In this document: in pieces, positions 28,674 to 29,863 of the stretch
Layout: each line of letters begins with the position of its first letter
Position numbering within the stretch: the stretch's first letter is position 1
From: a virus
IMG/VR virus record: IMGVR_UViG_3300025413_000091
Span: 1 to 29,863 of that record
DNA length: 29,863 bases
Reading direction: 5' to 3' (one strand)
Notes under the pieces: generated by a model
Seen by the model: only the letters and a program-made list of their open reading frames with translations
Database searches by the model: none
What the model was told of the DNA's origin: nothing
Translations under genes and position numbers: made by a program

Positions 28674-28924
28674 TCTTGTCCCCTTGTTCTGATATCTTGT
28701 GCAATGCTTTGTTGAGCAAACAAATATCCTTTTTTTATATCTTTATTTTCATCATGCAAAATTCTGTTTTCTGCAATCTTTGCACAAGCCTCACGTTCTT
28801 TTTCTGCTACCAGTTTGGCAAAGCGTAATAAATCATCATCATCTAAACGCCATTCTTCTGGATATTTTTTAGGGCTATAACCTCCAGCTTCTTTAGCCAT
28901 CTCTATGATTTCATCTTTAGTCAT
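28670..28924 (-). CDS. Small phage protein with EREACAKIAE motif
   Basis: The 84-residue protein starts with a short helix (MTKDEIIEMAKEAGGY), then a DDDDLLRFAKLVAEKEREAC segment and AKIAE, ending with IAQDIRTRGQE. The combination of LxRFAxLV...EREACAKxxE...AIRxRG is a very common small phage protein motif of unknown function, usually in early operons. It overlaps the RusA gene by four bases and the membrane-peptide gene by four bases. Confidence 0.72.
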   Translation of the reverse strand: MTKDEIIEMAKEAGGYSPKKYPEEWRLDDDDLLRFAKLVAEKEREACAKIAENRILHDENKDIKKGYLFAQQSIAQDIRTRGQE

Positions 28925-29340
28925 TTTGCCTCCCTAATCATTATTTCTACATAAGGTTCACCATAAACCTTGGTTGCGTGTAAATCCACAATCTGTGTGT
29001 CATCATCGTAAACAACCCCATTCATGGCATCTAAATAGGCTTTAATGATATTGTCAATGTCAGGCTTTTTAGAAGGCCTTTCTGCGCCTATTAAACAGGC
29101 CTCCCTGCGTTTTTTTGAGTACGACTTAGGCACAGGCATAGAAATGTAAATAAACGCTTCTAAATCGGTTTTAAAAGGTTCTGATGCACCCATCGCACGT
29201 TTAGCTTTGTCAACAATGAAATCTTCATATTCAAGCGTTGACTTGGGTGTGTAGGTAGAAACAAAGTTTCCTCGTCTGGCAAACCGCGGCCTTGCCTTAC
29301 CTTTGGGTAGTCCATCGACTTTAAACATGACGATCAGCAT
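28921..29340 (-). CDS. rusA: RusA-like Holliday-junction resolvase
   Basis: RusA cleaves four-way DNA junctions during phage recombination and before packaging. Starting at 29340 (AAGGA five bases upstream, preferred over 29364) gives 139 residues. The N-terminal DGLPKGKARPRFARRGN fits the family's first strands. KPDIDNIIKAYLDAMNGVVY (92-111) holds the catalytic aspartates D94 and D96, followed by DDDTQIVDL with the third acidic site (D112-114). The length fits the family (about 120-140). It overlaps the neighbours on both sides. Confidence 0.9.
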   Translation of the reverse strand: MLIVMFKVDGLPKGKARPRFARRGNFVSTYTPKSTLEYEDFIVDKAKRAMGASEPFKTDLEAFIYISMPVPKSYSKKRREACLIGAERPSKKPDIDNIIKAYLDAMNGVVYDDDTQIVDLHATKVYGEPYVEIMIREAK

Positions 29341-29491
29341 TGAGTTCCTTAATTCTTTGGGCAATTAACTTGCCTATTCCATGAAAAGCAGGTTCTTGTT
29401 CCATTAGCTTAACTTGTTGACGAACATAGTCAAGCCATGCAGGTTTAATGGCTAATTTGGCATAATGTTCGACAATAAGTTCAATCTTCAT
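29321..29491 (-). CDS. Hypothetical 56-residue protein
   Basis: A 56-codon minus-strand frame starts in an ATGA overlap with the upstream putative replication gene and ends 20 bases inside the RusA gene. The protein is helical: MKIELIVEHYAKLAIKPAWL, DYVRQQVKLMEQEP, then a GIGKLIAQRIKELN end. Small proteins with this order (a VxHY-A...P.W..YV...V..L start) are encoded before RusA-like genes in some phages. No function is known. Without it there would be a 147-base gap in an otherwise gapless operon. Confidence 0.6.
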   Translation of the reverse strand: MKIELIVEHYAKLAIKPAWLDYVRQQVKLMEQEPAFHGIGKLIAQRIKELNADRHV

Positions 29492-29863
29492 TTCCCGCCT
29501 TTTAGCATTTGAAACTTTGCTTTAATATCTTCAGGCATTGCAACGGCTTTTTTAGCATCTTCTTCCAGCTTAACAAGCACGGGATCGCGTTCTTTAGATG
29601 ATGGAACGGTTTGATGAACAATATCGGTTTTATTGGCTATCCATTCGGCTTTAAAGGTTGTCCAACCCCTGACGCAACATTCCTTAATGGCATCTTCTAA
29701 ACTAATCTTTGCTTTGTCCGCTTCTTTTTGAATGGAGTTAAGCAAGGTTTGAGTTAAGGGTTTGTTTTTGGCTTTCAGAACTTTTTCAAAATCCATATAT
29801 ATATGGTTATTGGTTATTGGTTCTTGGTTATTGGTTGCTATTGGGGTGGCATAAGGGGGGTTA
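29488..29863 (-). CDS. C-terminal part of a putative phage replication protein (5' end outside window)
   Basis: The frame stays open to the right window edge. The ATG at 29796 has no ribosome site, so it is probably internal and the gene continues beyond the window. The visible part begins with a linker rich in Asn, Pro and Thr (about 22 residues, with NNQEPITNN), then PLTQTLLNSIQKEADKAKIS and LEDAIKECCVRGWTTFKAEW, then a charged tail. The 'REAxxAxxxLExAxxxCCxRGWxxFKAxW' pattern is typical of the C-terminus of phage replication initiator or helicase-loader-like proteins. The linker DNA holds tandem heptamers and an AT palindrome. Confidence 0.6.
   Translation of the reverse strand, partial: NPPYATPIATNNQEPITNNHIYMDFEKVLKAKNKPLTQTLLNSIQKEADKAKISLEDAIKECCVRGWTTFKAEWIANKTDIVHQTVPSSKERDPVLVKLEEDAKKAVAMPEDIKAKFQMLKGGK
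29793..29834 (-). repeat. Tandem heptamers and AT-rich palindrome in the replication gene (candidate origin)
   Basis: On the plus strand four heptamers of the form TT[A/C]TTGG lie head to tail at 29807-29834 (three TTATTGG and one TTCTTGG), with a related TATTGG at 29839-29844. Directly beside them at 29793-29806 is a perfect 14-base palindrome, CC, ten alternating A/T, GG. Direct repeats next to an AT-rich element inside a replication gene recall the lambda origin within gene O. Confidence 0.55.

Follow-up and report, generated by a model that had tools for sequence, protein, structure and literature searches.

A probable replication origin within the initiator gene of DUF1376-type phages

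Comparison of a 29,863-base stretch of viral DNA (the window; a whole virus record, classed as linear) with related sequences suggested that a phage replication origin probably lies inside the phage's own initiator gene, in the stretch encoding a disordered linker between an N-terminal DUF1376 domain and a putative helicase-recruiting C-terminal domain. In the relatives, the elements of this stretch follow one order: 11-bp direct repeats come first, AT-rich AACCAAT heptamers follow, and a hairpin or palindrome comes last. The 11-mers, most of which lie beyond the window, are the better iteron candidates, and the heptamers would probably serve as an unwinding or single-strand region rather than as iterons. 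The initial annotation had proposed that the heptamers beside a palindrome form a cis-acting origin; the comparison gave good support to an origin within the initiator gene, but the heptamers are probably not the iterons. The features of the window are listed in Table 1.

Table 1. Positions of the features discussed in the text (window coordinates)
Feature	Position	Strand	Basis
Heptamer array AACCAAT AACCAAG AACCAAT AACCAAT AACC	29805..29836	-	Direct reading, shuffles, tandem-repeat ranking
Perfect palindrome CCATATATATATGG	29793..29806	.	Direct reading; sits where relatives carry a hairpin
Initiator gene, 3' part	29488..29862	-	Open frame running off the contig end; PHROG 678 match
O-like C-terminal domain region	29617..29796	-	PHROG 678 match and predicted helical domain
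11-bp direct repeats: two complete copies (TTATGCCACCC, CAATAGCAACC) and a third cut to nine bases (TAACCCCCC)	29833..29863	-	Comparison with L002, period-11 signal

The window array consists of four heptamers, one of them with one substitution, and four bases of a fifth. On the minus strand it is preceded by TAACCCCCC TTATGCCACCC CAATAGC and followed by ATATATATATGG; the set of 11-bp repeats is cut by the contig end, and most copies are off the contig. None of the dinucleotide shuffles of the window matched a three-heptamer pattern, even with two mismatches allowed, and the array had the highest score of all tandem repeats in the window. The head-to-tail heptamers match the description in the initial annotation. 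The adjacent palindrome that it had reported was also found, a perfect one of 14 bases with ten alternating A/T, whose edge is overlapped by the array. The G in the AACCAAG unit avoids an in-frame TAA.

The visible frame matched PHROG 678 ("replication initiation O-like") at residues 23-82 (E 1e-11), and a search of viral contigs with the visible protein yielded 24 loci. In one of these, L002, the visible 102 aa are 100% identical, the heptamer linker is shared and the sequence extends upstream of the window's end. The full L002 protein comprises, from N- to C-terminus, PF07120 (DUF1376; E 2.3e-18), the linker and the O-like domain; the 5' part of the window gene is off the contig, and its DUF1376 domain is predicted from L002. 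By sequence comparison, the window gene represents the 3' portion of an initiator gene for phage replication, and near-identical contigs supply the rest. The earlier suggestion of an initiator gene running off the window end was therefore borne out by the PHROG match and by L002, in which the array falls between the DUF1376 N-domain and the O-like C-domain, that is, within the initiator linker as had been supposed.

An AlphaFold2 model built on an alignment of 59 relatives was confident for the N-domain (block pLDDT about 92-97 up to residue 90) and for the helical C-domain, and poor for the linker (block pLDDT 49-61, residues 101-130), which is predicted to be disordered between the two domains. 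The N-domain model contains helices and a two-strand wing, and its closest structural matches were winged-helix regulators. Because the VIA-align Z of these matches was at most 5.3 and a Foldseek search with the predicted structure gave no match at E<=0.001, the assignment of the DUF1376 N-domain as winged-helix-like and DNA-binding is suggestive. A PDB sequence search found no relative. As for the DNA-binding N-terminus that the initial annotation had recommended looking for, the full gene has a DUF1376 N-domain, whose winged-helix matches are weak.

The initiator is followed in the window, downstream on the same strand, by an annotated RusA-type Holliday junction resolvase gene (28921-29364). 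A helicase gene (DnaB-like or replicative) lies directly 3' of the initiator gene in Vibrio phage 1.137.O and AbP2, and a helicase or helicase-loader gene is also found beside it in Shewanella X14. In L010, the neighbor is a methylase-like frame, and the initiator gene is preceded by a small frame that resembles, by eye, a regulator of the Cro or YdaS type, an order like that of lambda.

The pattern (ACCAAKA)3ACC was scanned over 2.9 million viral contigs, and the frame through each of 120 listed matches was taken blind to domains. Among the matches listed, 111/120 frames contained DUF1376 by Pfam, 113/120 matched phage primosomal-protein PHROGs, and in 110/120 the array was in sense inside the DUF1376 frame. 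The heptamer AACCAKA was dropped as a control, as 20 of its 38 matches were DUF1376 genes; it is a variant rather than a control, and the permuted heptamer CCAAAKA was therefore used instead. CCAAAKA was present in just 7 viral contigs, with DUF1376 in none. A perfect, TAA-bearing array pattern was associated with DUF1376 in 7 of 34 matches and lay mostly elsewhere, which is expected, since no frame stays open through three perfect copies. In bacterial genome contigs, DUF1376 was found in 0/120 of the (ACCAAKA)3ACC matches listed; the link is therefore with phage genes and not with the heptamer motif generally.

The reverse test started from eighty DUF1376 loci picked with the domain alignment, by protein only. 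With no motif assumed, 75 of the 80 loci in this sample, which is biased toward relatives of the first sequence, had a best tandem period of 7, 14 or 21 in the linker. Among linkers of DUF1376 genes selected on the protein alone, 78 of 81 contained at least three heptamers. A broad sampling by Pfam from 398 Pseudomonadota genomes (23 linkers counted, the masked locus L467 left out) gave significant 7-bp arrays in 6 linkers and significant 11-bp arrays in 8, and a spaced CCA core was seen in several linkers even there. The layout therefore marks the phage-initiator part of DUF1376 and not the whole family. Five of six whole genomes of cultured phages that were examined carried arrays (BA3, Vibrio 1.137.O, P19250A, phiAC-1 and AbP2); the sixth, DC33, had no DUF1376 match. 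Arrays were also found in phages of Moraxella, Chlorobiaceae CV-1-33, Pseudomonas phPA-G and Shewanella X14. The repeats, whose absence from close relatives had been named as evidence against an origin, were present in all close relatives and in most viral DUF1376 genes. ACCAAKA arrays were also frequent outside DUF1376 genes in chromosomes of cyanobacteria and Bacteroidota (L233-L352).

L002 carries six consecutive 11-mers upstream of the heptamers (AATAGCCCCCC TATAGCCACCC CATTGCCACCC CATAACCCCCC TTATGCCACCC CAATAGCAACC). In the 55 nt upstream of 167 distinct arrays, lag-11 identity was 0.504 vs 0.259 in codon shuffles (z 44); lag 22 gave z 31, and side peaks appeared at 12 and 23. In the protein-picked set alone, lag-11 identity upstream of the arrays was 0.528. 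Subtypes have different 11-mers, e.g. AACGCAATGCG or ACATGATGGGT, and at least three different N-domains, each accompanied by its own 11-mers, occur in combination with the C-domain and heptamers of the window (L002, L005, L006). Across the 167 loci, upstream sequence similarity showed a partial r of 0.36 with the N-domain and -0.02 with the C-domain. Shared 6-mers amounted to 0.255 for pairs with similar N-domains and unrelated C-domains, and to 0.032, equal to background, for pairs with dissimilar N-domains and similar C-domains. By these measures, the 11-mers go with the N-domain and not with the C-domain, a correlation to which physical linkage contributes because the 11-mers adjoin the N-domain. 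Mannheimia phage 587AP2 (L441:370-1143) has a related C-domain on another N-domain; its linker contains 19/22-bp palindromic repeats of the TCGGATTTAAATCCGA type as well as an AT-rich tract, and heptamers are absent. The heptamer type therefore goes with DUF1376.

Neither repeat period, 7 or 11, is a multiple of three, so the repeats ignore the codon frame. As a null model, each linker of the 167 loci was synonymously recoded using the gene's own codon usage. Lag-7 identity, a figure partly conditioned on array calling, was 0.816 vs 0.539 after recoding, and lag-11 identity was 0.496 vs 0.357. The best-period test on the 80 protein-picked linkers is free of the array-calling condition. When one sequence was taken per N-domain cluster (20 clusters), z above the recoding null was 13.6 for lag 7 and 9.5 for lag 11. 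An explanation of the repeats at the protein level was ruled out by the synonymous recoding. Base choice in the heptamers depended on whether a stop would be created: across the 167 loci, T occupied position 7 in 67-72% of units in either harmless phase and in 2% of units where TAA would arise, with G, A or C otherwise. The lone substituted heptamer of the window is in exactly the TAA-avoiding phase.

The arrays had a GC content of 0.32 vs about 0.5 in both flanks, and their coding strand contained 3.4% G. The AT-rich region of lambda also shows strand asymmetry, there for purines (PMC5043065). Hairpins were frequent in the first 25 nt or so on the 3' side of the array: the mean best arm was 5.48 vs 4.14 in shuffles, and at least 7 pairs were formed in 20% of cases vs 1% in shuffles. 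No hairpin excess was seen farther downstream of the arrays. Hairpins just 3' of the arrays in L360, L401, L414, L372 and others have stems of 6-9 bp and small loops, e.g. TGAA, TAAA, TAAC, TGAC or TTCG; the sequence varies and the structure is kept.

Heptamer copies per array ranged from 3 to 9. Fifteen Moraxella phage records carry the gene at 97-100% identity; the match has one common length in 12 of them, falls 33 bp short of it in one and 11 bp short in two. The 33-bp-shorter copy has three 11-mers fewer and encodes an intact protein of 264 aa, in frame. Mcat25 (L451:59-875) and Mcat28 (L440:498-1314) have lost one 11-mer, and their frame ends inside the heptamers at 144 aa. In-frame lengths are thus kept in 13 of the 15 records, a pattern compatible, at the sequence level, with copy number being selected modulo three and broken copies arising now and then. 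The initial annotation had argued that gain or loss of one heptamer would shift the frame, making copy number either strictly fixed or a switch. Loss of one copy does truncate the protein, but this was seen for the 11-mer in Moraxella and not for the heptamer. Strict fixation is contradicted by the range of heptamer numbers and by the Moraxella 11-mers, which differ by three, and no evidence for a regulated switch was obtained, most Moraxella records being in frame.

Several other readings of the repeats were considered. They could have arisen by slippage and be tolerated because the linker is unstructured, with no function in cis; the predicted disorder of the linker, the varying copy number and the heptamer arrays without DUF1376 that are common in bacterial chromosomes, above all in cyanobacteria and Bacteroidota, agree with this. 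However, slippage would yield varied units and periods, and the linkers instead have two fixed periods in fixed order, a single heptamer core across 20 N-domain clusters, and a base choice that shifts solely where a stop would arise. We consider slippage improbable, and just as improbable a recombination boundary for swapping N- and C-terminal domains. The pairing of 20 N clusters with 11 C groups among the 167 loci is what such a boundary would give, as is the occurrence of one C-domain and its heptamers, those of the window, with three or more N-domains; the N-domain-specific 11-bp repeats, the hairpin and the AT-rich array would nevertheless be left unexplained, and the exchange may be a by-product of the conserved stretch.

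Binding by the N-domain would look identical in sequence if the repeats, instead of being an origin, acted as an operator for autoregulation or as a site for partition or packaging, and plasmid iteron arrays often do both jobs, as operator and as origin. The position deep in the gene, the AT-rich tract and the adjacent helicase gene of the relatives nevertheless suit an origin better, which makes these roles less probable still. Least probable of all is phase variation, with the repeats switching the C-domain on and off. Neither seven nor eleven is divisible by three, and Mcat25 and Mcat28, with one 11-mer fewer, are truncated; but these two may be defective prophages, 13 of 15 Moraxella records keep in-frame lengths, the arrays are short and impure, and switching is hardly to be expected of a replication gene.

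In its layout, which combines the linker of the initiator gene, candidate iterons, an AT-rich tract and a hairpin, the stretch resembles a lambda-type origin, with differences in repeat lengths and initiator family. Lambda ori in gene O and the Stx phage origins likewise lie in the middle of the initiator gene, have several iterons adjoining an AT-rich region and a strand-asymmetric unwinding tract, and show in-frame differences in iteron number among relatives, two extra iterons corresponding to 13 aa (PMC7466680, PMC5043065). Of the lambda-type features, repeats between the N- and C-domains inside the initiator gene and an AT-rich tract beside the iteron candidates were found here. The 19-bp inverted iterons of lambda were not, the DUF1376 phages having 11-bp direct repeats; AACCAAT heptamers are not described for lambda, and the DUF1376 family is not known as a relative of lambda O. 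Vibrio cholerae ori2 is chromosomal and located outside its initiator gene, unlike the arrangement in DUF1376 phages. It is similar in its short initiator sites (12-mers) and in the short repeats of its unwinding region, which are bound as single strand (PMC5395669, PMC10797057), but its initiator, RctB, is unrelated and the repeat of that system is (G/A)ATCA. Unwinding-element repeats are also read as single strand in RK2 oriV, with its 13-mers, and in DnaA-trios (PMC10797057); these have 13-bp and 3-bp units and other initiators, and lie outside the initiator gene.

The Rac prophage of E. coli K-12 contains a DUF1376 gene, ydaU (L433:3620-4477), with 11/12-bp linker repeats (ACAGGTGTTCAA ACAGATGTTGAA GTGGTGTTTGAA) but without a clear heptamer array. 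Because Rac carries a known origin, oriJ (PMC3945230), ydaU is a candidate for the oriJ site; no source placing oriJ in ydaU was found in the literature searched. Judged by titles and abstracts, none of the papers there that mention DUF1376 concerned an origin, and searches on the heptamers, 11-bp repeats, ydaU and oriJ, from which subscription journals were mostly absent, returned no description of the arrangement.

On the origin model, the DUF1376 domain, predicted to be winged-helix-like, would bind the 11-bp repeats cooperatively, one helical turn apart. The adjoining A/C-rich, low-GC heptamer array would then open, with one strand held through the repeated AACCA core, and the C-domain would recruit a helicase or helicase loader, so that replication would start at the linker. 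The hairpin or palindrome next to the array may mark the far edge. We infer these steps from the sequence comparisons. Detrended cumulative GC skew, a check suggested by the initial annotation, had its minimum no more than about 3.3 kb away from the linker in BA3, Vibrio 1.137.O, phiAC-1 and AbP2 (the closest), four of the five cultured phage genomes, but far from it in P19250A; the support is weak because transcription direction also shapes skew.

More tentatively, and with the balance somewhat against it, these phages might represent a distinct DUF1376 origin class in which the subtype-specific 11-mers are read as duplex and the near-universal AACCAAT as single strand, with one protomer per seven bases. 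Such a class would be a phage counterpart of the DnaA-trio, placed within the initiator gene and over all three reading frames. Pfam assigns no function to DUF1376, a family widespread in phages and prophages, and the pattern predicts for it a function (initiator), DNA sites (11-mers) and an unwinding tract (heptamers). The linkers are a clear case of DNA signals laid over a protein-coding linker with periods blind to the reading frame, and the position of the origin would be predictable from sequence alone in many uncultured phages.
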